Source: Marinobacterium litorale DSM 23545
Lineage (GTDB): Bacteria > Pseudomonadota > Gammaproteobacteria > Pseudomonadales > Balneatricaceae
Assembly: GCF_000428985.1 (NCBI RefSeq)
Contig: NZ_AUAZ01000003.1
Span: forward strand, 1-53,313
DNA: 53,313 nt
Direction of reading: 5' to 3'
Below the pieces are notes generated by a model. That model searched no databases, was not told the origin of the DNA, and worked only from the letters and a program-made list of their open reading frames with translations. The position numbers were made by a program, and so were the translations under genes. Positions 1 through 45,848 of the stretch are shown here, piece by piece (position 1 is the stretch's first letter; the number at the start of each line of letters is the position of its first letter).

Positions 1-309
1 ATAGCAAGCATCGATATTTCGACAGTATCGGGTGCTCAGAAGGCCATTGGCGCGATCGACAACGCACTGGATACCATCAACTCAACCCGAGGTGATCTCG
101 GTGCGGTGAACAACCGTCTGGACTTCACCATCAACAACCTGTCCAGCATCTCCGAGAACGTGTCTGCTGCACGGTCTCGAGTAGAGGATGCGGACTTTGC
201 GAAGGAATCTGCAGCGCTGTCCCGCTCTCAGGTTCTGCAGCAGGCCGGTACTGCAATGCTGGCCCAGGCTAATGCCGCACCGCAGCAGGTACTGTCACTG
301 CTGCAGTAA
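1..309 (+). CDS. fliC: Flagellin, C-terminal part only (5' end lies before the window)
   Basis: The first 309 bases are open in frame 1 and encode the last 102 residues of a flagellin, ending in LLQ and TAA. This is the C-terminal D1-D0 helical region that packs into the filament core: it has the [14 protein letters not shown] stretch and the [13 protein letters not shown] stretch typical of Pseudomonas-type FliC. Its last 70 or so residues differ at only about five positions from the end of the large flagellin encoded at 3622-6657, so the two could copolymerise. A terminator follows within 25 bases, so the gene looks monocistronic. Start, promoter and variable domain are outside the window. 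Confidence 0.95.
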   Translation: MASIDISTVSGAQKAIGAIDNALDTINSTRGDLGAVNNRLDFTINNLSSISENVSAARSRVEDADFAKESAALSRSQVLQQAGTAMLAQANAAPQQVLSLLQ

Positions 310-380: not shown

Positions 381-746
381 ATGAGTATCGAAACCTCTGG
401 TTTGCCTCCGCAAACCCCAATGCAAGGTTCATCTTCCCGCCAGTTGCCTGATGTGCAGGCTCAGGAAGTGGCTCAAGCGGCTCAAGCCAACGCTCAAAAA
501 AACGCTGAGCAGACGGAGCTTTCGGTAGAGAAACTGCAGGCTGCTGTCGAGAAAATGAACGAATTGATGCAGAACGGCCAACGTTCTCTTAATTTCTCTG
601 TCGATGACTCGACGGACCAGGTTGTGGTCAAGGTGCTGGATACCAGTACCGATGAAGTGGTTCGCCAAATACCCTCAGAGGAAACTTTGAAATTCGCCGA
701 GTACCTGGAAGGGATGGTCGGCCTGATCTTTGACCAGCAGGCCTGA
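381..746 (+). CDS. flaG: FlaG family flagellar protein
   Basis: 121 residues. The first 60 or so are Gln/Ala-rich and probably flexible. The second half (NFSVDD, then VKVLD, VVRQIPSEE and a final EYLEGMVGLIFDQQA) is the conserved FlaG domain. FlaG is a small protein of polar-flagellated bacteria encoded beside flagellin and fliD. It affects filament length and appearance; its exact biochemistry is not settled. The ATG at 381 is preceded by GAGGTAAGG. It lies between the flagellin terminator and fliD, as in Pseudomonas and Vibrio. Confidence 0.93.
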   Translation: MSIETSGLPPQTPMQGSSSRQLPDVQAQEVAQAAQANAQKNAEQTELSVEKLQAAVEKMNELMQNGQRSLNFSVDDSTDQVVVKVLDTSTDEVVRQIPSEETLKFAEYLEGMVGLIFDQQA

Positions 747-757
747 CGGCCGCGGGT

Positions 758-799
758 CGGTTTCTGCTAGACTTAGGCGTATAGATTCAGTAGAAACCG
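758..799 (+). other. Imperfect inverted repeat between flaG and fliD
   Basis: CGGTTTCT (758-765) is repeated inverted as AGAAACCG (792-799), with 26 bases between. A weak GG-N10-GC spacing (754-767) falls in its left arm and could be a poor sigma-54 site for fliD. No T-run follows, so it does not look like a terminator. Role unknown. Confidence 0.3.
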
Positions 800-849
800 G
801 TCCCTGACCCCATTCTCAAACAGGGCGGCATTATCGTGAGGCCAAGCCC

Positions 850-2886
850 ATGTCCAATATAATCTCTTCACTTGGTGGTGGTTCCGGCGTCGACACTACC
901 AGCTTGGTTTCCAGCCTGGTTGAGGCTGAGCGTGCACCCCAGGAAAGCCGTCTGGATCGTCGGCAGGACAAGCTGGAAGCCCAGATCTCCGCCTACGGTA
1001 CCCTTAAAAGCGCACTTTCAGAGTTTCAAGGGGTGCTCTCGCCCCTGGCAAATGCAGATACCTTTAATGCGCGTTCTGTGGCTTTCCCGGAAACGGATAT
1101 TATTACCCCCAACTCCTTGGATGCGGGCGCACAGACTGGCAGCTATCAGATAGAAGTATTGGATGTGGCCAGTGCGCAAACCTTGGTGATGGGCAGTAAC
1201 AGTGACCAAAAGGCCGCGCTTGGGGCTAGTGGCGAGCTGAATATCCAGTTCGGTGCCTGGACCTACACCGGTAGTGATCCCACAGGCTTTGCCGTCAATG
1301 ACGGTAAAGCTGCATTGAATATTACCATCGAGGCATCGGATTCACTCAAGACGATTGCTGACAAGATCAATGATACTGACTCTGGCATCCAGGCCAGCGT
1401 TATGAAGGTGGATGATCAGTATCAGTTGATGCTGACTGCCCCCTCGGGCGAGGACAACGCACTTCAGATTACCGGTAATGACCCTTCTCTGTCAGGCTTT
1501 GAGTTTAATAGCGGCAGCTTTGCCTCTGTTACCGAAACCCAGCAGGCCAGTGATGCGCGTCTTAAGGTCAATGGTCTTGAGGTACGCCGCCAAACCAATG
1601 AAATCGACGATGTGATCACCGGTTTCAACTTTACGCTCAATAAAGCAGCGGAAGGCGAGAAGCTGAACTTCTCGGTGGATGCTGATACCGCAGTCGCGGA
1701 GCAGGCCATTCGTGATTTTGTCGAGGCATATAACAGCCTTTACGAAACCACCAAAAACCTGACCGGTTACTCCAAGGATGAGAACAACAATACCGTTCGG
1801 GGCGATTTGGCAACGGATGGCACCGCCAAGGCGCTTATTCGTCAGCTCCGTAATATGGTTGGTACACAGGTGCCGGGCGTAGAATCCGGTTTTACCGCAT
1901 TGACCAATGTGGGCATACGCACCGAATTGGATGGCACACTCTCCATTGAAGAGGATGAGTTCAGTGCGGCGATCAGCCAAAACTTTGAAGAGGTTGCCAA
2001 TCTCTTTGCTCAAAATACCAGCAGCGGCAACAACTACGTTGATGTAGGTACAGGAACACGTATTACCGGGACTAAAGCCGGTAACTACAACGTAGAGATT
2101 ACTCAAGACCCATCGAAAGGTTTTGTAACGGGTAATGCCATTGTAGGCACTCTGTTTGATACACCGCTGGATACCAGCGCTGGTGACTACAGTTTTCAAA
2201 TCAGTGTAAACGGGACGAAGTCCGACACCATTACGCTGAGCGGTACCTACAACTCTGCGGATGAGGTGCGCGCAGAGCTTCAGTCGCTGATCAATGGTGA
2301 TGCTAAGTTAAAAGCGGTGAACTCTGCCGTGGATGTAAGTTACGATAGCGATACAGGTACATTCAGCTTCATCTCCCGCGAATATGGTAGTTCATCGAAA
2401 GTGAGCTTCTCAAACGTGGGTGCGGATATGGCCAATCTAGGCGTAACCGATGCATTGAGCGGCACTGTCGGTAAGGATGTGGTCGGTACCATTAATGGCC
2501 AGGCCGGTTTTGGGGCGGGTGAAGTATTGCTGCCGGATCTGGAAAGCGACGCCTACGGGCTTAACCTCTCAATAAGACCCGGTGCGGCTGCTGAAGGTGC
2601 TTTTCAGATCAATTTCTCGCGCGGTATGGGTGGTGAGCTTACCCGGCTGATTGATCGGTTCCTGGCCAGCGATGGTGTTATCGCCAGCCGGGAAGATAAT
2701 ATCGACAATCAACTTGACGGTATTCAGGATGACCGGGAAGAATTGGATCGTAAAATTGCGATTTATGAAGAGCGTCTTACCGCTCAGTTCCTCGCGATGG
2801 AGCAGGTGGTTTCCAGTCTGAATGCAACCGGTGATTCACTGGACGGTATTCTTGATCGTTTACCCTGGACAGCCCAAAACGGCTAA
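850..2886 (+). CDS. fliD: Flagellar filament cap protein FliD
   Basis: 678 residues. FliD forms the pentameric cap at the filament tip, folds incoming flagellin and in some bacteria acts as an adhesin. The N-terminus (MSNIISSLGGGSGVDTTSLV) and the C-terminal coiled-coil segment, about residues 605-660 (IDNQLDGIQDDREELDRKI, then a helix ending near FLAMEQVVSSLN), are typical FliD_N and FliD_C. The centre contains at least one flagellin-hook IN type repeat (around residues 405-520). The protein is some 200 residues longer than Pseudomonas FliD, with the extra length in the exposed middle. The start is supported by GTGAGG about ten bases upstream. fliS follows 54 bases downstream. Confidence 0.95.
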   Translation: MSNIISSLGGGSGVDTTSLVSSLVEAERAPQESRLDRRQDKLEAQISAYGTLKSALSEFQGVLSPLANADTFNARSVAFPETDIITPNSLDAGAQTGSYQIEVLDVASAQTLVMGSNSDQKAALGASGELNIQFGAWTYTGSDPTGFAVNDGKAALNITIEASDSLKTIADKINDTDSGIQASVMKVDDQYQLMLTAPSGEDNALQITGNDPSLSGFEFNSGSFASVTETQQASDARLKVNGLEVRRQTNEIDDVITGFNFTLNKAAEGEKLNFSVDADTAVAEQAIRDFVEAYNSLYETTKNLTGYSKDENNNTVRGDLATDGTAKALIRQLRNMVGTQVPGVESGFTALTNVGIRTELDGTLSIEEDEFSAAISQNFEEVANLFAQNTSSGNNYVDVGTGTRITGTKAGNYNVEITQDPSKGFVTGNAIVGTLFDTPLDTSAGDYSFQISVNGTKSDTITLSGTYNSADEVRAELQSLINGDAKLKAVNSAVDVSYDSDTGTFSFISREYGSSSKVSFSNVGADMANLGVTDALSGTVGKDVVGTINGQAGFGAGEVLLPDLESDAYGLNLSIRPGAAAEGAFQINFSRGMGGELTRLIDRFLASDGVIASREDNIDNQLDGIQDDREELDRKIAIYEERLTAQFLAMEQVVSSLNATGDSLDGILDRLPWTAQNG

Positions 2887-2906
2887 TGAATACTCACTAA
2901 CCCTCT

Positions 2907-2923
2907 CGCGGAGTCGGTCCGCG
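2907..2923 (+). other. Small hairpin between fliD and fliS
   Basis: CGCGGA (2907-2912) pairs perfectly with TCCGCG (2918-2923) around a five-base loop. No T-run follows, so it is not a normal terminator. It could act in mRNA processing or in setting the fliS level relative to fliD. Confidence 0.4.
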
Positions 2924-2940
2924 TAATTGGTGGAATAGAT

Positions 2941-3348
2941 ATGAATATTAACGCGCTCAAGCAGTACAAAAATGTGGATTTGAATGTAGCAGTGGAGAAT
3001 GCAACGCCCCACGAGCTGGTTTCAATGATGTTCAAGGGCGCGCTGGAGGCGTTGGCCAAGGCTAAGGGTGCGATTGAGCGCAACGACATCCAGTTACGTA
3101 CACAGCAGATCAACAAAACCACCGAGATTATTGTTAACCTCAAGGGTACATTGAACTTTGAGCAGGGTGGTGAGATTGCTGAAAACCTGGATGCGCTCTA
3201 CGACTATATGATCCGTACGCTGATGCAGGCGAACCGTGAAAACAGTGGAGAGAAAGTGGCTGAGGTTGCCGAGCTGGCGTCGGAAATCTTCCAGGGGTGG
3301 GCGGGTATCCCGCCGGAAGAGCATCACAAGTCTTCGTTTGTAGAATAA
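2941..3348 (+). CDS. fliS: Flagellin export chaperone FliS
   Basis: 135 residues. FliS binds the C-terminal disordered segment of flagellin in the cytoplasm, stops early polymerisation and delivers it to FlhA. The sequence has the FliS hallmarks: an N-terminal ALKQYKNVDLN segment, then ATPHELVSMMFKGALEAL, the middle helix with LNFEQGGEIAENLDALYDYM, and a final helix ending in WAGIPPE. ATG at 2941 follows a weak ribosome site (TGGTGGAATAGAT). It is the last gene of the flaG-fliD-fliS group. No fliT-like gene follows; the strand then switches to the protease-bearing flagellin. Confidence 0.95.
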   Translation: MNINALKQYKNVDLNVAVENATPHELVSMMFKGALEALAKAKGAIERNDIQLRTQQINKTTEIIVNLKGTLNFEQGGEIAENLDALYDYMIRTLMQANRENSGEKVAEVAELASEIFQGWAGIPPEEHHKSSFVE

Positions 3349-3562: not shown

Positions 3563-3591
3563 AAGGCGGGATCTTCGTGAAATCCCGCCTT
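3563..3591 (-). terminator. Intrinsic terminator of the protease-bearing flagellin gene
   Basis: A perfect 10-base stem, AAGGCGGGAT (3563-3572) against ATCCCGCCTT (3582-3591). Read on the - strand it is followed by ATTTTTATA, so it terminates transcription from the gene ending at 3622. It lies 30 bases past the stop. Confidence 0.85.
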
Positions 3592-3621: not shown

Positions 3622-6600
3622 TTAACGAAGCAGTGACAGTACTTGCTGTGGCATGGCATTGGCCTGCGCCAGCATGGCGGTTCCGGCCTGTTGTAACACC
3701 TGAGCCCGTGACAGCGTCGCAGACTCTTTTGCAAAATCCGCATCCTCAACGCGAGAGCGCGCCGCGGAGATGTTCTCGGAAATGCTGGAGAGGTTGTTGA
3801 TAGTAAAATCAAGGCGGTTGTTTACCGCACCGAGCTGAGAGCGGAACTGATCGATCTGCTCCATGGCGTTATCCACCGAGCTTATCGCTTTTTGGGCACC
3901 TGCGACTGTACTGATATCCAGCCCACTCAAGGTGCTTCCACTGATCCCGCCTTGGGCGCTGTTGACTTCCAGCCAGCCGGTTGTGCCGACCGGTGTATTC
4001 CCCAGCTCCAGAGAGATGGCTGAACCATCAAGGCTGCGTAGAGAAATTCCGGCTTTGGCACTGGTCCCGTCCTGGACATCGGTTGCTTCGCCGTTAGCCG
4101 CTTCTGTCGCCGAAGAGATAAACTTGGCGCCGCCACCGCTGGGGTGTCCAAAAGCCAGCGCGGCGGTAGGCCCTAAATCGGGTACGTCCGAAAAGGTAAT
4201 AGGCGCATTTCCTTCCAGAATAATATCGTTTCCGTGGATGCGAGCGCTTATTCCTGTATCTCCGGTAAAGCTGTTAAACGTCTCTGCCAGTTCCTGAATG
4301 CTGGCATCATTACCAATCCCGGTCATCACAACACCGTTGAGTGCAAAATCCCCCCAGCTGTTGTTGGACCAGGTATCGTAATCAAATCCGCCCAGCTTGA
4401 GTGTGCCGGATGAGTAGAGGCTGGCGACCACGCCGGTTTCATCGGAGATGGCGTTGATAGCATCTATTTTACCGTAGAAGGTGTCGGTATCCGTTACATC
4501 CACTTCGACCCCGTTGATTTCTATTTGGCCCTTCTCCCAGGCCGTGTTGGGCTCGGTAAGACCCACACCGTTGATGACACCGGGGTCCGGGCTTTCACGA
4601 AAACCCAGAAAGGCAAGATCAGCCAGGGTGCCGGTTAAACCACGCTCAACGGTAATGGTTTCTCCTCTGTCTGAGGAGAGCACCAGTTGTGCGCTGGCAC
4701 TGATGGTGCCCGTGCTATACCCATCGGGTAGCTGAAGATCGAAATTAATGGGTCCGCCCGTGGCTGTGTTAGGCAGTACCGAGGTGGCGGTGAGTATAGA
4801 GCCCCCGACGTAGTCGGCACCTGCGATACTACCGGTATCGGTGTCGCCGCTTTGCAGGTTCATGGAGACTGTCCCAAGGCCTGAATAGGTGGCGCTTCCG
4901 GTCACGGCTTCAGTCAGATAGTCTTCAACGTTTGCGTAGTAGAATGTTTCAAATGCGGTCAGGCCTGTACCGGTTCCCCAGTTTACTCCGGAGTTAACCA
5001 ATGCTGCGTCGAGGTTGAAACCCACTTCTAAATCATCAAAAATGTCGCTAATGCTTTGACCTCCGGCGCTGGCTAATCCATCCTCCATCATTTTCAAGGC
5101 AACATAGCCTGCCGAATAACCGAGGCTATCAGAGGGTGAGCCGCTCGTCATTTTCAGAACGCCGGGGTCTGCAAAGGCAGCAATGCCGTCGGCTAGCGTC
5201 CCTGCAGGAGGAATATTCGCGGAGATATCTCCCAGTACACGGCTGTCTGCACCGTGTAAGAGTTCTGAAACGCCCTCAGTAAAGAAGCCGGGCAGGGCGG
5301 TGTTGACGAGTGCAGGAATCTTCGCTGCCATTACAGCGTGTACCATTTCATGAGCTATGATGCGGTCATTGTAATAAGGGTCAGAGCCTTCCAGGCTCAC
5401 GAAGTCCGCCATATCAACAACCAGCTTTAAATCACCTGAGCCGCTCCAAACGGCTGCTATCCGACCGCTGGCTCCATCTGAACGAAGATCGTCTAGGTTT
5501 CCCACGAAATCTGAAAGGTCGCCAGTCAGCGTCCCGTCAGTTTCCGCGAATATTAGATCTATCGGCGTGTCGTTTCCCGCAGTTAGCCCAAAGTAATCGG
5601 TGATCAGCGTCTCTGCTTCTCTGATCCAGTCCTGGGACAGGCGATCAATAATATTTTGATGGATCGAGCTACCTGCGCCGGTGCCGGCGGTAATACCGGT
5701 TGCGCCGGAACTATCGGTAACGGATAGGGTCGCTAAGCCTGTGCCTGAGAGCATCAAGCGGCCATCGTCAGTGATATCGGCCGCCAGGTTGCCCCCGGAT
5801 TTCTCTACGATGGCATCGGCGAGTTCTTGCAGAGAGTTTGTGTTGTTGACACTGATAGATACCTGCTCGCCGGTTGCGAAGCGGTAGGTGATATCCACGC
5901 TATCGCCGCCACTTAATATGCCGCTGCCTCCGGCGCTAGCTTCCAGCTCAACATAGGCCTCGGCGGTAACCCCGGATATGGAGTTGGTGATTTTATCGAT
6001 AAGCGTTTGGACGCTGTCGCCACTGGCTATGCGTTCAATACTCTGTCCGTTGATCTTGAGGTCACTGGGCAGTATGGAGTTTGCGATCTCGCCATTACTA
6101 TTCAGGGTGATCGCGCTGCTTACCAGATCTCCGCTTAAGCCCCTCAGGCCAAGTTCGCTGGAGTGGGTGGATTGCAGTTCCAGTCCTATTAGCTCGTTTG
6201 CCGACGCGCCCACCTGCAGGTCAAGTTTGTCTGTTTCACCGCTGAGTAGTTTCAGGCCGTTAAAGGTGGTGGTTTCGGAGATTCGGTCTAACTCTTTCAC
6301 CAGTTGCTGTACTTCGGCATTGAGGGTGGAGCGGTTGCCGTCGGAATAAGTGCCGTTGGCGGATTGGATAGAGAGCTCACGGATGCGTTGAAGAATATTG
6401 GTGGACTCGACCAGCGCCCCTTCCGCTGTTTGAATCAGGGAGATACCATCATTGGCATTGCGAACCGCTTGATTGAGGCCCCGGACTTGAGACGTCATCC
6501 GGTTAGCGATCGCGAGCCCCGCCGCATCATCCGCAGCATTGTTTATGCGTCGGCCAGAGGTCAGACGCTCCATAGCGGTATTTAACGACTCAGCATTACT

Positions 6601-6657
6601 GGCCAACTGACGTTGGGCGTTCAGCGAGCTGATATTACTGTTAATGATAAGCGCCAT
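3622..6657 (-). CDS. Flagellin with inserted zinc-metallopeptidase domain (flagellinolysin type)
   Basis: 1011 residues. The start is the ATG at 6657 ([16 protein letters not shown]); an in-frame ATG five codons upstream would spoil the conserved flagellin N-terminus. Residues 1-170 are D0-D1. Residues about 205-330 contain flagellin-hook IN type repeats. Residues about 345-575 form a gluzincin-like protease: H436-E-M-V-H440 with a probable third zinc ligand E461 in [12 protein letters not shown]. Residues about 580-900 are further variable domains with IN repeats, and about 910-1011 are D1-D0, nearly identical to the flagellin ending at 309. Known family: flagellinolysins, flagellins that build a filament with proteolytic surface. 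Export and co-assembly with the plain flagellin are inferred. It has its own sigma-28 promoter and terminator and is convergent with fliS. All catalytic residues appear intact. Confidence 0.92.
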
Positions 6658-6729
6658 GTGTGGCCCATCCATCTGTCCGAGCCCGTTTGAGCGGGCTGCT
6701 AACGACTGCGAATAAATTCCTACTTTTTG

Positions 6730-6756
6730 ATATCGGCCGGATGTGAGAGCTCTTGA
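6730..6756 (-). promoter_or_regulatory. Sigma-28 (FliA) promoter of the protease-bearing flagellin
   Basis: On the - strand TCAAG (6756-6752), exactly 14 bases, then GCCGATAT (6737-6730). This fits the flagellar sigma factor consensus TMAAG(TTT)-N11-GCCGATAA with correct spacing. The transcript would have a leader of about 65 bases before the ATG at 6657. FliA is encoded at 45138-45848. Confidence 0.85.
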
Positions 6757-6790: not shown

Positions 6791-6910
6791 CCTGCATATG
6801 GTTCATCGAGCACCCGGTTAGGGTTTCTCCACAAGAGCGGTTAGAATTCCCGCATCCTGTTACCCAAACGAAGATGTAACCGGCCGTTATGGCGGTTGCC
6901 GGTGAACCCC

Positions 6911-8905
6911 ATGCTCAAGAAAAACCAGCTCGAACTCCTAAGCCCCGCCCGTGATGCCGGTATCGCCAGAGAAGCAATCCTTCACGGTGCCGATGCTGTG
7001 TACATTGGGGGCCCTGGCTTTGGCGCCCGCCACAATGCGGCTAACTCCGTTGAGGATATTGCCGCTTTGGTGGGGTTTGCTCATCAATATCACGCCAAGG
7101 TGTTTGTTACGCTCAATACCATTCTCCACGATGACGAGCTGGAGCCTGCGCGGGCGCTGATTCACCAGTTATACAACATCGGCGTGGATGCCTTGATTGT
7201 GCAGGATATGGGCATCATGGAGATGGATATCCCGCCGATTGAGATCCACGCCAGTACCCAGTGTGATATTCGCCGGCAGGAGAAGGCGGAGTTTCTGTCA
7301 CAGGCCGGTTTCTCGCAGATCGTGTTGGCTCGCGAGCTGAATTTGCAGCAGATTCGGGAGATCAGCAACAGCGTTGATGCCGCTGTCGAGTTTTTTATTC
7401 ATGGCGCCCTCTGTGTGGCGTTTTCGGGGCAGTGTAATATTTCCCATGCCCAGACCGGCCGCAGCGCCAATCGGGGTGATTGTTCCCAGGCGTGTCGTTT
7501 GCCCTATACCCTGAAAGACGACAAAGGGCAGGTGGTGGCCTATGACAAGCACCTGCTTTCGATGAAGGACAACAACCAGACCGATAATCTGCGTGCACTG
7601 GTCGATGCCGGTGTGCGGTCGTTTAAAATCGAAGGACGTTACAAGGACGTCGCGTACGTTAAAAACATCACGGCGCATTACCGCAAACTGCTGGACGAGA
7701 TTCTGGCGGAACGTACCGATCTTGAAAGAGCATCCAGCGGTGTGACTGAACACTTTTTTCAGCCGGACCCGGATCAGACCTTCCATCGCGGCAGTACCGA
7801 TTATTTCGTGTCAGACCGCAAAATCGATATCGGTGCCTTCGACTCTCCCAAGTTCGTGGGGTTGCCTGTCGGTGAGCTGATCGGTGTGGGTAAAAAAGAC
7901 CTTACGGTTCAGACCACCACAGAGCTTAACAACGGCGACGGCCTCAATGTGCTGGTGAAACGCGAGGTTGTCGGTTTTCGGGTTAACAATGTTTACCCGC
8001 TGTGTGATTTTCCCTCCGGTGAAGATGACGGTGTGCATTACTGGCAGTACCGCGTTGTGCCCAATGAGATGCCGGCAGAGCTGGCTAAGGTTCGCCCGCC
8101 GCTTAAGCTTAATCGCAACCTGGACCATGACTGGCAGCAGGCACTCACCAAGACCTCGGCAGAGCGCAAGGTACTGGTAAACTGGCAGCTGGAGTGCAGC
8201 GCAGAAAGCCTCAGTGCATCGGTCGTCAGTGAGGAAGGTATAGAGATTTCTGCCGAGCTGGAAGGTCCGTTCGATGCAGCAAAAAACGTCGAAAAAGCGC
8301 AGCAGCAACTGCGCGACAGCTTTGCCAAGTTGGGCAATACCATCTATCACGTGGAAAATTTCAGCATGACTGGAGACGCTCGGTTTATTCCGGGCTCACA
8401 ACTCAAAGCCCTGCGCAGGGAGATGATCGAACAGCTGTCAGAGGCTCGACTAAAAGCACACCCGAGAGGGATGCGTAAAGCGGTCAGTGATCCCGCCCCT
8501 GTGTATCCCGATACTCAGCTGTCGTTCCTCGATAACGTCTATAACGAAAAGGCGCGCGCCTTTTACAAACGCTTTGGTGTGCAGCTGATTGAAGCGGCAT
8601 TTGAGGCCCATCAGGAAACCGGAGATGTACCGGTGATGATCACCAAGCACTGCCTGCGTTTTTCGTTCAACCTGTGTCCCAAGCAGGCTAAGGGTGTGAC
8701 GGGTGTGAGAACCAAGGTCAGTGATATGCAGCTGGTCCATGGCGATGAAGTCCTGACGCTGAAGTTCGATTGCAAACCCTGTGAAATGCACGTGGTCGGT
8801 AAGATTAAACCGCATATTTTCAATAGCGTATTGCCCGGCAGTAATGCCGGTGGAGGCGCTCATAGCTTTGATCCTGCCAGTTTGATTGCTGTTAGCCGCG
8901 ATTGA
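6911..8905 (+). CDS. rlhA: 23S rRNA 5-hydroxycytidine C2501 synthase (peptidase U32 family)
   Basis: 664 residues, close to E. coli RlhA (YdcP). It is a U32-family protein that hydroxylates C2501 of 23S rRNA; despite the family name it is not expected to be a protease. The sequence follows RlhA from end to end: LELLSPARDAGIAREAILHG at the start, the cysteine-containing segment FFIHGALCVAFSGQCNISHA, GDCSQACRLPY, then DAGVRSFKIEGRYKD and a C-terminal region with CLRFSFNLCPKQAKG and KFDCKPCEMHVVGKIK. ATG at 6911 is chosen because GGTGA lies five bases before it; an in-frame TTG at 6896 lacks a ribosome site. It is a housekeeping gene between flagellin and fleQ, with no evident functional tie to motility. 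Confidence 0.9.
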   Translation: MLKKNQLELLSPARDAGIAREAILHGADAVYIGGPGFGARHNAANSVEDIAALVGFAHQYHAKVFVTLNTILHDDELEPARALIHQLYNIGVDALIVQDMGIMEMDIPPIEIHASTQCDIRRQEKAEFLSQAGFSQIVLARELNLQQIREISNSVDAAVEFFIHGALCVAFSGQCNISHAQTGRSANRGDCSQACRLPYTLKDDKGQVVAYDKHLLSMKDNNQTDNLRALVDAGVRSFKIEGRYKDVAYVKNITAHYRKLLDEILAERTDLERASSGVTEHFFQPDPDQTFHRGSTDYFVSDRKIDIGAFDSPKFVGLPVGELIGVGKKDLTVQTTTELNNGDGLNVLVKREVVGFRVNNVYPLCDFPSGEDDGVHYWQYRVVPNEMPAELAKVRPPLKLNRNLDHDWQQALTKTSAERKVLVNWQLECSAESLSASVVSEEGIEISAELEGPFDAAKNVEKAQQQLRDSFAKLGNTIYHVENFSMTGDARFIPGSQLKALRREMIEQLSEARLKAHPRGMRKAVSDPAPVYPDTQLSFLDNVYNEKARAFYKRFGVQLIEAAFEAHQETGDVPVMITKHCLRFSFNLCPKQAKGVTGVRTKVSDMQLVHGDEVLTLKFDCKPCEMHVVGKIKPHIFNSVLPGSNAGGGAHSFDPASLIAVSRD

Positions 8906-31372: not shown

Positions 31373-31411
31373 TCCTTGATGCAGAACCTGTGTTGTTTCG
31401 AGGACAGCCAT

Positions 31412-34400
31412 ATGCCGGCTCCAACTGTAAATCTATCGCTCGCAGCCATTTCCGGGCCCGCACCAAAAGCCTCTGGAGGTGCCGCAGTAGCTTTGAATGC
31501 GCCTTCCGGTGGGCAGGGGATAAGCTTTGGGCAGTGGATGCAGCAGATGTCCGATTCTGCTGGGCAGTCCAGTGGGTCTAGAGGACAGAACTTGCCGCCT
31601 GAGGGACGAGAAGGAAAAGTTTTGCCGGGAACGGCGGGGCAGAGCTCGACGGCCTCTGAGGCAGAAGCTTCGCCGCGGGCAGGAAGCGGAATTGAAACAG
31701 GTAGGTCGTCCGGCGCTGGTGCAGAGGGGGAAGATGCTGTGGGATCAGCGGATGCCCGCGTGCGCGAAACTCGGGAAGAGTGGGGAAATGGCAACGCGCA
31801 TCGAGTTCAAGGTCAGAGCCCGGCGGAAGCTGAAACCGCGCAGGCGAGAGATCGGGTACCAACCACCAATCCATCACCCGAACAGCAGTCAACGGCGCAA
31901 GGGCAGCGACCAGTAGCTGTTAGTGAACCCCATCCCTATATTGTCAATAACTCCGAATACAACACTCAGCCTACTGTGCAGCATGTTGATAGTCTGGCTG
32001 TGTCTAAAGTGTCGCCCGCTACAGGTAATCAGACCCGTGGATCGAACGATGTTTCGTCTAAGGGAGTGGGCTCTGTAGCTGGTGCCAGTGCAGAGGGGGC
32101 GGGTGTTATTGATAGGGCAGGCACAACGCATACGGGCAAAGAGGGCGGTGCAGATAATGGCGCAATCGAGAGTAAGTCTCCTGAAAAATTGGTGCTAGCT
32201 GAGGATAGAGCAGTCGCTTCCTCGGGTGATTCGATAGAGGATGAGCACGAGCGAGAAGTGCCTCGAGAGGGGCGTGCAACTGCCGCGGAGATAGATGGTC
32301 GGCAGGTTGCGGCGCTAATTGCCAGTCAGCCTAGCAGGACCGCTGAGCATTCGCGTGGTAGCTCGGAGCAGCAGGCTGATATAGCTCAGGCTCAGGTGCG
32401 GGCTCCGAAAGGTTTGAGCTCAGCTGAGGTGGATGAACCTCTTGCTCGAAGTCAAAGAGGGGGGGGGGACAGTGGTTCTGCTGGGGCGGGCCCTGCTTCC
32501 AATGGTGGGTTGGAGCGCCCGCTCATGGGCAGTGATGGAGCGGGAAAGGCCGATCAGCGCGGGGAAAAAGCCGATATCCAGGTTACAAGGCCGGTTCCCA
32601 ATCGAGTGGGCCGGAAGTCTGAGGCTTCAGCTTCTTCTAAAGCGGCGGATGCTAACCTTTCAGCGCGTGTTGGTGACGGTGGTGCCTTCGGGCAAAGTCA
32701 GTTCAGGGCAACAGTCTCTGCGGTAGGTGGGCAAGCGAGCGCACAGCGCACTGATGCTGTGCCTCAGGCTAGTAATCGGTTCACTCAGCAGAAGCCTGTT
32801 GCAAGCGGTTCTGTCGCTAGTGATGTCACAGAGAGTCGTCGCCAGTCAAACCGTGCCCCGGAGAGGACTGTCCTGAGTAGTGGTAAGGTTCAGGTAATTG
32901 AGTCCGAACATATGTCTGCTTCCGCGCAAAAGCAAGCTTCTTTAGGGGGGGCATCAGGTAAATCTGCTGAGCAGCCGACGGGAAACGCTGAGCTTACGCC
33001 AAGTGATACCCGTCAAACTTCAACCGGTGTATCTACTGATCAGTCGTTGGCAGGTGCTGAACATAGGCTAAACAACGGCCGCCAAACTTCATCAGGTATG
33101 TCTCCTGAGCGGCCGGCGGTAAACGCTGTACATGCGCCAAACAATACGCGTCAAGCTTCATCCGGTAAATCTGCTGAGCAGCCGACGGGCAACGCTAAGA
33201 TTACGCCAAGCAATACGCCTCAAACCCCATCCGGTAGATATAATGATCAGCCGTCGGTGAACGCTGGACGTACTACAATCTACACGCGTCAAACTTCATC
33301 AGGTATGTCTACTGATCCGCTGTCGGCAAATGCTGAACGTACTACAAACAATACACGTCAAACTTCATCAGGTAGATTTACAGAGCAGCCGACGGGAAAC
33401 GCTGAGCGTACGCCAAATAATGCCCGTCAAACTGGTAACGGGTTAGGTTCTGCGGACAGAGCAGTGCAGACTCAAGAAAGTGGCTCGGTGCCGGTCTCGC
33501 TGAGAGTTGAAGGTCGGATGGGTGTGCAACCCGCAGAAGTCGTATCTGCTTCTTCGGTAAGCGCTCGTGAGGATAAATTAGCCCAAAAGATTCAGGGTCA
33601 GAGTAATGCGGTTGAAACCGTATCCCGTCCAGCTGCGGCTGCGCAAGCCGAGCGGTTCGTCGATGCTTCTCGGAATGAGGGCGTATTGGCACCAATGACA
33701 GAATCTGAGGCTAAATATGCTCGTCCTGACGTTTCGGGCAATTCGGCGAAACATGTTACTGAGGAGCTGGCGACTCAGTCGCGAGGTCAGAGTAAGGACA
33801 ATAACGACAGTAGGGTGTCTGCTGATCGGGCACAGTCCGAGGTTCTTCTTGGCGAGTCTCCGAGAGGAGCTAAGGCAGAACCGGAGGCTAGGTCGGCGGC
33901 ATCTTCATCTGTTGAGGCTAAGTCTGAGACGCCTGATTTGGCTAGGCGATCCTCCGAGGTCGGTAGTGTCAGTTTTGAAGACGCATCTCGTGTTGTTCGA
34001 GCGGGAGGTGGAGATGAGCAATCTACCAGGGTCGAGAGGCGTGAGCCAGATACTGCAGCACTGAAGCCTGAGGAGAGATCGACAGCAAACCCGGTAGCGG
34101 AGGTGGAGTCAGCGCAAAATGAGCAGCAGGAATCTGTGGTGCTACAGGGAAGGCCTGATGTGAATCATCAATCCTCCTCTTCTACCCAAAAGGATGAGCG
34201 GCCAACTAGCGTGTCTGCCGTGCAGGTATCTAAAGATGGCGCTGCTATGGGCATATCGTCAGAGCGTTCTTTGACCGCTAGGGATACGGTTGTAAACAAT
34301 TTAGATCAGCTTGCTAGAGCGCCGGTGAATACAAACCAGTCTGATTCGGGCGGTAGTCATCGTCAGGCAAATGTTGGTGCCTCTCAGCAAGTCGGGACGC

Positions 34401-35053
34401 GCCCCTCAGTTGATCCTCAAGGTCCCTCGACGCCGGGAGTGCCCGCATCAGTGGCGAATGATGGCGAACCGTCTACTTCCGCTGCTCAGCCTGGCCGCAC
34501 GGTACCTAGTCTTGGTGGCGAGGCTCGGCAGATAAATGAAAGCACTGCCAGCCTCACAGCTCAGCAACAGGCGTCCAATTCGGCTCCTGCCCTTAGCCAA
34601 AGGGCTGAGGTGGCGGCTGGTACTTTAGCGATGGCCCAGCGTCTCCAAGACCCGGCCTGGGGGCGGGCAATGGGGCAGCGTGCGGTCATGATGGCCCAGT
34701 ACGGCCCGCGTTCGGCCGAGATACAGCTTGATCCTCCGGAGTTGGGTGCAATGCAGATCCGGGTTCATATTGGTCACGGTGATCAGGTTAGTGTGACCTT
34801 TACCTCGCCGAATGCGGCTGTGCGGGATGCACTCGAGCAGCAGATGCCCCGGCTGCGGGAAATGTTTTCGGAGCAAGGGTTGGATTTGAACCAGTCGACG
34901 GTATCCGACCAGTCTACCCGGGAACGCAATGACGACTCTCCTGATCGGCGGGGCGGTGGTCGAGGTGGGCAGTACGCGGGCGATGAAGGCGCTGCAGACG
35001 TCCCGGCCACTGCGCAGTCTGTACCGGTCGGCTTGGTAGACTATTACGCCTGA
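31412..35053 (+). CDS. fliK: Flagellar hook-length control protein FliK, greatly enlarged
   Basis: 1213 residues, two to three times the usual FliK. It is exported and measures the hook, then switches the export gate from hook to filament substrates through FlhB. Only the C-terminal region (about 1070-1185) is well conserved: QLDPPELGAMQIRVHI and LEQQMPRLREMFSEQGLDL are the Flg_hook domain. The first 1000 or so residues are Ser/Ala/Gln/Thr-rich and likely unfolded. They contain seven 23-residue tandem repeats (about 514-674) and a run of ten G bases (residues 350-352). ATG 31412 (MPAPTVNLSL) follows GAGGA; earlier in-frame starts are at or before the sigma-54 start. The large spacer should matter for the ruler function. 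Confidence 0.93.
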   Translation: MPAPTVNLSLAAISGPAPKASGGAAVALNAPSGGQGISFGQWMQQMSDSAGQSSGSRGQNLPPEGREGKVLPGTAGQSSTASEAEASPRAGSGIETGRSSGAGAEGEDAVGSADARVRETREEWGNGNAHRVQGQSPAEAETAQARDRVPTTNPSPEQQSTAQGQRPVAVSEPHPYIVNNSEYNTQPTVQHVDSLAVSKVSPATGNQTRGSNDVSSKGVGSVAGASAEGAGVIDRAGTTHTGKEGGADNGAIESKSPEKLVLAEDRAVASSGDSIEDEHEREVPREGRATAAEIDGRQVAALIASQPSRTAEHSRGSSEQQADIAQAQVRAPKGLSSAEVDEPLARSQRGGGDSGSAGAGPASNGGLERPLMGSDGAGKADQRGEKADIQVTRPVPNRVGRKSEASASSKAADANLSARVGDGGAFGQSQFRATVSAVGGQASAQRTDAVPQASNRFTQQKPVASGSVASDVTESRRQSNRAPERTVLSSGKVQVIESEHMSASAQKQASLGGASGKSAEQPTGNAELTPSDTRQTSTGVSTDQSLAGAEHRLNNGRQTSSGMSPERPAVNAVHAPNNTRQASSGKSAEQPTGNAKITPSNTPQTPSGRYNDQPSVNAGRTTIYTRQTSSGMSTDPLSANAERTTNNTRQTSSGRFTEQPTGNAERTPNNARQTGNGLGSADRAVQTQESGSVPVSLRVEGRMGVQPAEVVSASSVSAREDKLAQKIQGQSNAVETVSRPAAAAQAERFVDASRNEGVLAPMTESEAKYARPDVSGNSAKHVTEELATQSRGQSKDNNDSRVSADRAQSEVLLGESPRGAKAEPEARSAASSSVEAKSETPDLARRSSEVGSVSFEDASRVVRAGGGDEQSTRVERREPDTAALKPEERSTANPVAEVESAQNEQQESVVLQGRPDVNHQSSSSTQKDERPTSVSAVQVSKDGAAMGISSERSLTARDTVVNNLDQLARAPVNTNQSDSGGSHRQANVGASQQVGTRPSVDPQGPSTPGVPASVANDGEPSTSAAQPGRTVPSLGGEARQINESTASLTAQQQASNSAPALSQRAEVAAGTLAMAQRLQDPAWGRAMGQRAVMMAQYGPRSAEIQLDPPELGAMQIRVHIGHGDQVSVTFTSPNAAVRDALEQQMPRLREMFSEQGLDLNQSTVSDQSTRERNDDSPDRRGGGRGGQYAGDEGAADVPATAQSVPVGLVDYYA
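32459..32468 (+). repeat. Poly-G tract (G10) inside fliK
   Basis: Ten consecutive G, coding for Gly-Gly-Gly plus the first base of Asp. Loss of one G would shift into a frame that stops at 32726; gain of one G would stop at 32533-32535. Both remove the Flg_hook domain, so this is a candidate slippage switch. Confidence 0.85.
32951..33433 (+). repeat. Seven tandem 69-base repeats in fliK
   Basis: Seven contiguous, in-frame units of 69 bases (23 residues) with a pattern like SSGxSxxQPxxNAxxTxNxTRQT. Each unit ends in a Gln preceded mostly by Arg (RQT or RQA; PQT in unit four). Units one, four and seven share EQPTGNA. Divergence between units shows it is not a very recent expansion. No spacers, so not a CRISPR. 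Confidence 0.9.
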
Positions 35054-42766: not shown

Positions 42767-44284
42767 ATGAAGGTAAAGCGCATATTTGCACCGGACATGC
42801 GTCAAGCGATGCGCCGGGTTCGCGAAGAGATCGGGCCTGACGCTGTTATCGTTTCCAACCACCGTGTTGCCGGCGGCGTGGAGATCGTTGTTGCCCGGGA
42901 GGAGGAGTATGAGGCCGCGCAAAGCGAGATGAAGCGCGAACGTGATCGGCGTCGGGACGAGCAGGTGCGCATTCTGACTGGCCAGAAAGAGCGTCAGAAT
43001 GAGATGCTTGCGGCTGAACTGGAGCGCGCACGCCTCGATATAGCGAAGGCGCAGGAGGGAGTTGCATCGTCCGAAGTGACACGTAGCGCGAATCGTCAGC
43101 TGGAAGCCGAGGACGATAACGAGCTTGAGTCAATTCTCGAATCTTTGCGTGCGCGCCAGCGGGAGCGTGCAGCCGCCGGGCTCGATGACGACATACCTTC
43201 GCCGCCGCCACGTCGGCGATCAGAATCCGTGCGGGCTCCACAGCTTGAGCCGTCTCGCAGCCAGGCTTTGGAAACGTCTGGCGATCATCTCTTGATCCGA
43301 AATATGCAGGATGAAATACATCAGCTCAGGGCGATGCTCGAGCAGCAGCTTTCTGCGCCAGCCGCGCCACCGGCGTCGGTAAGCGCGCCAGTGGCACGGC
43401 GTGCTCCTGCAGAGGTCGAGAGTGATCTTGGCGTGTCTGATCATCAGGTATCAGGGGGAAACAAAGAGCAGCTCGAGCGTCGCTTTGAACGGCTTGGCTT
43501 AGGTGGCAGGCTGTCCCGCTCTCTGCTGGCTTCCATTGAGCCGGACTTAAGTATCGATAAGGCATGGCGTAACTCACTGGCACGGCTGGCCGAGTCGATT
43601 CCAGTGGTTGGCGAGGAGCTGATCGAGCGGGGTGGGATGCTGGCGTTTCTAGGTCCGACCGGGGTTGGCAAAACAACGACGATCGGAAAGTTGGCAGCGC
43701 GATATGTGTTGCAGCACGGCAGTTCAAGTTTGGCGTTGGTGACCACTGATAGCTTTAGAATTGCAGCGCACGAGCAGCTCAAGACCTTTGGGCGAATTCT
43801 TGATGTGCCGGTCCGTGTTGTCGATGAAAACCACAGCCTGGAAGAGGTGTTGCAGTCGCTGCGCGGTAAACGTTTGGTATTGATCGATACGGCCGGAATG
43901 AATGCGCAGGACCCAGCCGGACAGCTGCAGCTGGAGATGCTTGAAAGTGTCTCGGTTCGGATCAAAAAATTGCTGGTGCTTTCCTGCTCCAGTCAGCGTC
44001 AGTTGCTTGAAAATGCCTGGCAGGCATACTCGGGGTTGGGTCTTCATGGGTGTGTGCTAAGCAAGCTGGATGAGTCGGGTAGTTTGGGTGAGGCATTGAC
44101 GCTGGCGGTGGAAAAGCAGTTACCCGTCGCCTATGTGGCAGATGGTCAGAAAATCCCAGATGATATTGGTCTGGCCCGGCGCCACGACCTGGTCAGCCGC
44201 GCGGTGGTTACCGCGCAAAAAGAGACCGAGCGCAACCGGGCCGGCGGTAAGGGAAATAAAGGTCGCCTGTTCCGGGCAGGCTGA
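42767..44284 (+). CDS. flhF: Flagellar placement GTPase FlhF
   Basis: 505 residues. SRP-type GTPase that marks the cell pole for flagellum assembly. The N-terminal B domain starts MKVKRIFAPDMRQAMRRVREEIGPDAVIVSNHR; a long charged and coiled linker spans about 50-235; N and G domains follow, with G1 GPTGVGKTTTIGK starting at G296, TTDSFRIAAHEQL (G2), LIDTAGM (G3) and SKLDESGSLGEAL (G4-G5). The linker is Arg/Glu-rich with the Pro stretch PSPPPRRR. It overlaps fleN by one base (TGATG), so the place-and-number pair is coupled. Confidence 0.95.
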   Translation: MKVKRIFAPDMRQAMRRVREEIGPDAVIVSNHRVAGGVEIVVAREEEYEAAQSEMKRERDRRRDEQVRILTGQKERQNEMLAAELERARLDIAKAQEGVASSEVTRSANRQLEAEDDNELESILESLRARQRERAAAGLDDDIPSPPPRRRSESVRAPQLEPSRSQALETSGDHLLIRNMQDEIHQLRAMLEQQLSAPAAPPASVSAPVARRAPAEVESDLGVSDHQVSGGNKEQLERRFERLGLGGRLSRSLLASIEPDLSIDKAWRNSLARLAESIPVVGEELIERGGMLAFLGPTGVGKTTTIGKLAARYVLQHGSSSLALVTTDSFRIAAHEQLKTFGRILDVPVRVVDENHSLEEVLQSLRGKRLVLIDTAGMNAQDPAGQLQLEMLESVSVRIKKLLVLSCSSQRQLLENAWQAYSGLGLHGCVLSKLDESGSLGEALTLAVEKQLPVAYVADGQKIPDDIGLARRHDLVSRAVVTAQKETERNRAGGKGNKGRLFRAG

Positions 44285-45137: not shown

Positions 45138-45848
45138 ATGTATAACCAGCTGGAATTCAGGTCAGGTCAGGAACTGGTGGAGCAGTATGCGCCATTGGTA
45201 AAGCGGATTGCGCGTCATCTCATGGCCCGTTTACCGTCCAATGTGGTGCTGGAAGACCTGGTGCAGGCGGGCATGGTTGGATTGCTGGAGGCTCTGGGTA
45301 AATATGACCCGGGCAAGGGCGCAAGCTTTGAAACTTATGCCGGGATTAGGATTCGGGGTGCCATCATCGATGAAGTGCGTCGAGGAGATTGGACCCCCAG
45401 ATCGGTTCACCGAAACGGCCGACGTATCAGTGAAGCGATTGCGCAGGTTGAGGGACGTACGGGTCGGGATGCCACTGATACGGAAGTGGCCGCCGAGCTG
45501 GGCGTGAGCATGGACACTTATCACGGCTTATTGCAGGATTCTGCAGAGAGTCGCTTGTTCAGTCTTGATGAGTTGACGGAGTCCGGCGATGATGCTCCGG
45601 GGGAGCAGTTCGCTGGAGAGGAGCCGGAGCCCGGGGAGGCGTTGCAGGGCAGCGCTTTCAGGGTTGCGTTGGCTGGGGCGATTGAAGGATTGCCTGAGCG
45701 TGAAAAGTTGGTACTGGCGTTGTACTACGATGAAGAGCTCAATCTCAAAGAGATTGGGCAAGTGCTCGGAGTGACCGAGTCGCGAGTAAGCCAGATTCAT
45801 AGTCAGGCCGCAGCCCGGCTTCGATCCAGGTTGCGGGATTGGCGATGA
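45138..45848 (+). CDS. fliA: Flagellar sigma factor FliA (sigma-28)
   Basis: 236 residues. It directs transcription of late flagellar and chemotaxis genes once the anti-sigma factor FlgM (not in this window) has been exported. Region 2 starts YAPLVKRIARHLMARLPSNVVLEDLVQAGMVGL and includes FETYAGIRIRGAIIDEVR; region 3 follows from WTPRSVHR; region 4 has LPEREKLVLALYYDEELNLKEIG and the recognition helix ESRVSQIHSQAAARLRSRL. A target promoter is seen at 6730-6756. It is the last gene of the flhA-flhF-fleN-fliA group; the chemotaxis genes follow. Confidence 0.97.
   Translation: MYNQLEFRSGQELVEQYAPLVKRIARHLMARLPSNVVLEDLVQAGMVGLLEALGKYDPGKGASFETYAGIRIRGAIIDEVRRGDWTPRSVHRNGRRISEAIAQVEGRTGRDATDTEVAAELGVSMDTYHGLLQDSAESRLFSLDELTESGDDAPGEQFAGEEPEPGEALQGSAFRVALAGAIEGLPEREKLVLALYYDEELNLKEIGQVLGVTESRVSQIHSQAAARLRSRLRDWR

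Follow-up and report, generated by a model that had tools for sequence, protein, structure and literature searches.

A long-form flagellinolysin of Marinobacterium litorale with a zinc protease set in its outer region, and occurrence of the same protease domain on giant proteins and phage tails

Known flagellinolysins and the Marinobacterium protein

Flagellins with a built-in zinc protease have been published as active, filament-borne enzymes (PMC5595980; PMC7643111); as a kind they are already known, and the protein studied here is another member, in a rare long form. In Clostridium haemolyticum, FliA(H) has flagellin ends round a gluzincin insert with the HExxH...E signature, is active and EDTA-sensitive, and occurs in filaments (PMC5595980). 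HgrFlaMP of Hylemonella gracilis is a Gram-negative flagellinolysin with the same motifs, and its recombinant form, refolded with zinc and calcium, is an active protease (PMC7643111). One such relative degrades the flagellin of another species (PMC7643111), and it is therefore worth asking how the plain flagellin of the host escapes. Identity to collagenase is reported to be only about 13%, and that a flagellin gained the protease by itself, through insertion, is an earlier proposal (PMC5595980).

We analysed a stretch of 53,313 nucleotides of Marinobacterium litorale DSM 23545 (contig NZ_AUAZ01000003.1, positions 1 to 53,313), hereafter the window, in which one minus-strand gene encodes a protein of this kind (table 1). 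The product shares with FliA(H) its flagellin ends and gluzincin insert and with HgrFlaMP its motifs, yet it departs from both. FliA(H) is a 60.9-kDa protein with HExxH at residues 233-237 and its third zinc ligand 29 residues past the first His, whereas the window protein has 1011 residues, HExxH at 436 and the third ligand 25 residues past the first His; unlike FliA(H), it also has a Ser in place of the "basement" Ala, and its protease is nested in an IN-rich outer region (PMC5595980). HgrFlaMP has 565 residues and is encoded outside the flagellar cluster, whereas the window gene lies between fliS and a U32 family gene, near a fleQ-like gene; the C. haemolyticum flagellinolysin gene is likewise part of a flagellar cluster (PMC7643111). 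The insertion point of the window protein recurs in four long flagellinolysins, namely G085, L111 (from a Gammaproteobacteria MAG), L070 (Oceanospirillaceae MAG) and L054 (Cellvibrionaceae MAG), with protease identities to the window protein of 38-42%.

Table 1. Features of the flagellinolysin gene and its surroundings in the window
Feature	Position	Strand	Remarks
Plain flagellin gene, 3' end	1..309	plus	cut by contig start (102 aa)
flaG, fliD, fliS	381..3348	plus	downstream of plain flagellin gene (Pfam)
Intrinsic-terminator-like hairpin	3563..3591	minus	12 pairs, past stop codon
Flagellinolysin gene (flagellin with protease insert)	3622..6657	minus	1011 aa plus stop; alternative in-frame ATG at 6672
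D1/D0 C-terminal half	3625..3927	minus	residues 911-1011; 80% identical to plain flagellin
Outer (IN-type) domains after protease	3928..4689	minus	residues 657-910; homologous to plain flagellin outer region, as far as present
Protease cassette	4690..5682	minus	residues about 326-656; plain flagellin lacks it at the same point
E461	5275..5277	minus	third zinc ligand by alignment
HEMVH	5338..5352	minus	residues 436-440; two predicted zinc His and predicted general base E437
D415	5413..5415	minus	candidate calcium-site Asp; D in 46 of 59 aligned rows
Outer domain (IN type) before protease	5683..6237	minus	residues 141-325; in plain flagellin too, 36% identical
D0/D1 N-terminal half	6238..6657	minus	residues 1-140; 85% identical to plain flagellin
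FliA (sigma-28) type promoter-like site	6730..6756	minus	TCAA-N15-GCCGATAT, 10/12, 72 bp before ATG 6657
U32 family gene	6896..8905	plus	also at empty site in two genomes

The 1011 codons run without interruption from the ATG, while the plus strand of the same interval, in frame 1, is packed with stops; the product holds no cysteine. Pfam Flagellin_N matches residues 5-141 (158 bits) and Flagellin_C residues 926-1010 (98 bits), both over their cut-offs, which bears out a preliminary description of the locus that had seen intact flagellin D0-D1 ends round an insert. Three further stretches match Flagellin_IN.

Protease signatures and fold

HEMVH at residues 436-440 is followed by E461, 21 residues past H440, just as first described. 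With the NCBIfam flagellinolysin model NF033876 the protein scores 218.4 bits (E 2e-64) against a cut-off of 205; this model is not specific to flagellins, a piece of the giant RTX protein L051 passing at 221.1, and it is incomplete, the long flagellin L111 just missing the cut-off at 203.8. H436, E437, H440, E461, G462, E465, Y514, D607 and G609 are invariant in 59 of 59 rows of an alignment made of the window protein and 58 of 77 listed loci (named or viral), and since these key residues never vary, chance falls far short of explaining the HExxH. Second His and Glu are 21 residues apart in 37 of the 108 rows with the Glu pattern (110 rows examined, locus copies and one fragment left out).

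An AlphaFold2 model of residues 326-656, built with 59 sequences, reached a pLDDT of 82.8 and a pTM of 0.86. In model numbering, three strands (41-46, 76-81 and 84-90) are followed by one helix with HExxH (105-121) and another with the Glu (132-143), an order of elements that is expected of a zincin. The structure prediction and the comparison with known flagellinolysins that had been proposed as checks both came out in favor of a zinc protease, the former through the order of elements in the modelled residues and the latter through the NF033876 score and the invariant residues. A Foldseek search against the PDB gave no hit at E≤0.001, the best being MMP-11 (E 0.19, probability 0.63). This last result would suit a chance HExxH in the outer domain of a long flagellin that holds no protease, but the NCBIfam E value, the unbroken conservation of the key residues and the zincin order in a confident model all argue to the contrary; we regard such a coincidence as exceedingly improbable, and in practice the model score and the conservation refute it.

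Searched with the family profile, the PDB returned weak matches to glutamyl aminopeptidase (E 0.0037) and to the collagenases ColT (E 0.0052) and ColH (E 0.0085). With the clostridial collagenases (M9) the window protein shares the gluzincin motif and these last two weak matches; unlike them, it is built on a flagellin scaffold, and in the 1011-residue protein no Pfam M9 family matches at E≤1. Membership of M9 was thus rejected. Judged from its sequence, the protein belongs among the true flagellinolysins (MEROPS M101) and adds a member of rare long type to this known family.

Some positions depart from the family pattern. Three residues past the distal Glu, at a position whose Ala has been called a hydrophobic "basement" residue (PMC5595980), the window protein has S464, where 57 of 59 rows have Ala; residue 458 is Phe, in place of a Trp that is nearly invariant in the other aligned rows. 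Since all other features are present and the score lies over the curated cut-off, S464 is treated as an accessory departure, not one that defines a flagellinolysin. In the region before HExxH an Asp has been given a calcium role (PMC5595980); D415 lies in a column that is mostly Asp and may be the counterpart of Asp206 of FliA(H).

With S464, Phe458 and a protease branch of length 1.02 in the tree described below, a reduced or shifted activity of the window protease is possible. A stronger version, in which the protease has decayed or altered so that fold and motif persist with poor activity and the chief use of the insert is now its bulk on the surface, where it changes the thickness, stickiness or antigenicity of the filament, draws on the same two substitutions and the same long branch, as well as on the outer domain before the protease, which is down to 36% identity with plain flagellin. 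We nevertheless hold it to be unlikely: all zinc and catalytic residues are retained together with G462, E465, Y514, D607 and G609, the 1011 codons remain open, and the promoter-like site is kept.

Insertion point, origin of the parts and filament assembly

The plain flagellin of the same genome delimits the insert. The ordinary flagellin first described as ending at 309 does exist, but the contig begins inside its gene and the window has the 3' part only; a 415-residue N-terminal flagellin piece runs off the end of contig C28, with no exact overlap with the piece on C3, and the 415- and 102-residue pieces are most likely one plain flagellin gene. That gene is apparently broken by an assembly gap between C28 and C3. 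Flagellin_N matches three places in the genome: the 1011-residue gene, the plain flagellin piece and an adjoining 555-residue frame on C28, which is probably FlgL. The alignment with plain flagellin covers residues 1-325 of the window protein at 57% identity and picks up again at residue 657; therefore the cassette comprises about residues 326-656, and the IN regions on either side are of the host flagellin type. The idea that the IN-type domains past the protease are additions which govern its display finds no support: homologous domains form the outer region of plain flagellin in the host, and this flagellin has the part preceding the protease as well. Similarly, the C-terminus, previously called almost the same as that of plain flagellin, is indeed similar, but at 82 of 103 positions (stop included; 80%) it is not almost the same. 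The full-length model, weak overall (pLDDT 72.9, pTM 0.44), has the protease between strands 308-315 and 651-662.

The distance between the Flagellin_N and protease HMM matches is 193-194 residues in the window protein, G085, L070, L111 and L054; by this measure, the window protein and its four relatives have a single shared insertion point. Relatives number at least 127. Among the matches listed, 68 of 80 named loci have both flagellin ends round the protease, 7 the N end only, 1 the C end only and 4 neither, some of the incomplete ones being cut by contig ends. Only 3 of the 68 among the matches listed (L054, L070 and L111) are of the long type, in which an outer domain comes ahead of the protease; L121 is long in another way.

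Two genus mates, G002 and G003, have fliC, flaG, fliD, fliS, U32 and fleQ in this order and lack the protease flagellin. The gap between the fliS and U32 matches is about 190 bp there vs 3.5 kb in the window, where it holds the reversed gene. In G001 and G007 the filament genes adjoin fleQ in another order and U32 is absent; the stretches read in G005 and G006 have fleQ and fleR matches only, and in G004 the contig ends. None of the seven genus mates searched has the protease domain, which was found in 10 of 144 relatives searched and in 9 of 369 genomes sampled across the class (each count includes the genome studied here). Seven domain-carrying genomes from the same family or order (G085, G074, G065, G044, G094, G014 and G012) were read over 18-20 kb round the domain, and neither flaG, fliD, fliS, U32 nor fleQ had a match there; therefore, among the genomes read, the site beside the filament genes is particular to this one. 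The U32 gene was considered as a linked "second protease" and rejected, being present at the empty site too, with 93.5 and 94.0% identity. This identity to the two genus mates compares with 51-77% for the fliC pieces, flaG, fliD and fliS. In G012 (L007/L050) the flagellinolysin frame is only 309 residues long, without the flagellin N end, and looks like a disrupted gene; a transposase-like frame, recognised by eye, lies alongside, and a separate flagellin C-end match lies about 1.2 kb off.

Shell and cassette have apparently different affinities. The N-terminal domain is 85% identical to plain flagellin vs 73% to the G085 flagellinolysin, and the C-terminal one 80% to plain flagellin. In a tree of N-domains (37 rows) the window sequence is sister to plain flagellin (support 93/97, not starred). 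Forcing the N-domains of four long flagellinolysins into one clade was rejected (AU p 0.0057, for a group named only after the tree was viewed); those of G085, L111 and L054 thus do not form one clade with that of the window protein. The protease tree was made by a quick method from the 105 rows that were left once same-locus copies, fragments, identical phage rows and all rows scoring below 110 bits had been removed. It places the window protein with three giant proteins and the long flagellinolysins (SH-aLRT 89, not starred), although its row is one of ten long ones and its position is unsure. Grouping of its protease with the other long-flagellin proteases is thus moderately supported. Most simply, the long flagellins have the protease in common and the filament-forming ends are local, either because the protease was inserted into a copy of the resident gene or because gene conversion followed later. 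Composition does not point to foreign DNA of recent origin: the cassette has a GC3 of 0.541 vs 0.583-0.632 in the other parts of the gene, but fliD has 0.542.

Upstream of the gene stands a FliA-type promoter-like site (table 1); with the consensus used, nine places in the whole window, both strands counted, reach 10/12 or better. For comparison, plain flagellin has a weaker site (9/12) in this genome and one of 12/12 in G003. The hairpin past the stop codon is a weak sign, four terminator-like sites occurring in the stretch vs 3.3 expected from shuffles. Also in the window are fliA (45138-45848) and flhF (42767-44284), each of which exceeds its NCBIfam cut-off. From gene order, we take two regulators of sigma-54 type and a kinase to be FleQ/FleS/FleR; these match the right NCBIfam superfamilies and stay under every named cut-off. 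The flhF gene and the FleQ/FleS/FleR-like genes would fit a polar filament. At 31376-35053 on the plus strand lies a FliK-like hook-length protein of 1225 residues, seemingly unusually long, whose family match is confined to the C-terminal part.

Domain order, motifs, insertion point, empty site, the D0/D1 match to the host flagellin and the promoter-like site can all be read directly in the DNA. We consider it very probable that the protein is an M101 flagellinolysin of the rare long type, co-polymerised with plain flagellin and displaying its protease on the filament surface. In such a scheme, a gluzincin-type zinc protease of about 330 residues would occupy a loop in the outer part, where the IN domains lie, of a flagellin that is normal in other respects; the gene would be expressed with the late flagellar genes from the FliA promoter, and its product exported through the flagellar channel and polymerised with plain flagellin via the similar D0/D1 ends. 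Every copy would then put a protease outward on the filament surface, with H436, H440 and E461 holding zinc and E437 activating the water that cleaves the peptide bond. The swimming filament is thus probably coated with enzyme, and the earlier proposal of a flagellinolysin design that mixes with plain flagellin finds support in the NF033876 score, the motifs, the D0/D1 ends and the FliA-type site. Mucus or the surfaces of host and prey would be candidate substrates, as first proposed, and the enzyme may serve nutrition, matrix digestion or attack on competitors. Conceivably, the protein is instead a secreted or minor flagellin that is exported, seldom enters filaments and cleaves as a loose protease; the filament of C. 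haemolyticum does consist mainly of the structural flagellin, with less of the flagellinolysin, but the latter is spread throughout it (PMC7643111), and the D0/D1 ends of the window protein are 85% and 80% identical to those of plain flagellin. We judge a loose protease improbable, much as we do a decayed one. Taken as a filament-borne flagellinolysin, the window protein offers a clean natural case of an enzyme put on a bacterial filament, with one insertion point, an empty-site control within the genus and ends that match the host; therefore both co-assembly and dose are directly testable.

The same domain outside flagellin

The protease domain is not confined to flagellins. Giant frames carry it at L051:936-12530 (3865 residues), L052:1495-12726 and L056:1465-12078, the latter two over 3500 residues and reaching the end of their stretches; RTX and Ig-type repeats are present in all three proteins (Cellvibrio and a gammaproteobacterial MAG). 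The piece of L051 passes the flagellinolysin cut-off though the protein is no flagellin, and automatic naming could mislead here. At L105, the domain lies in a 417-residue frame without a flagellin end.

On viral contigs, some of them near-identical, the domain lies outside flagellin in 25 of 25 loci (L131-L155). In 24 of these, HExxH and WF.EG are both present, at the 21-residue spacing and close to the C-end of a protein some 690-725 residues long, whereas the DTGxI motif is found in only 11; the exception for WF.EG is L138, a 917-residue frame cut by the contig. Each of the 12 tail-type proteins scanned, L014/L133 and L015/L134 among them, matches PHROG 1887 ("tail protein") within its first 400 residues. 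Two viral proteins were scored with NF033876, and both fall below its cut-off, at 184.7 and 109.9. At L133:8711-10840, the tail protein with the domain is neighbored by a tape measure protein, a tail fibre protein and an endolysin. A viral fold search gave nothing at E≤0.001, and the protease domain of one viral locus found no match by tblastn among 50,697 phage records. Two whole tail proteins, on the other hand, matched 11 and 18 GenBank phage records, always within query residues 1-401 and never in the protease. GenBank phages thus have the same tail part without the protease, which therefore looks like an add-on there too.

The module is recognisable on all three scaffolds: flagellin loops, giant RTX/Ig-repeat proteins and phage tails. 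Our tentative reading, to which we would grant not quite an even chance, is that M101 is a portable protease for surface display rather than a flagellin invention. On a tail, its target at entry may be a protein of the host surface, be it S-layer, wall protein or flagellin; the direction of M101 transfer, like the function on the tail, is something that we infer. The words "phage", "adhesin" and "RTX" are absent, even inside longer words, from the main texts of PMC5595980 and PMC7643111, and a literature search of titles and beginnings of abstracts returned nothing on a fusion of phage tail and flagellinolysin, which is no proof of novelty. The occurrence on phage tails is a more surprising lead than the flagellinolysin itself: together with the giant RTX proteins it suggests a shared display module, and it provides phage biologists with a candidate tail protease. 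As a further observation on the domain, in G541, a genome from the phylum of Oceanobacillus, two adjoining frames carry it (G541:C31:28113-30131; L202 and L205), perhaps as tandem flagellinolysins.
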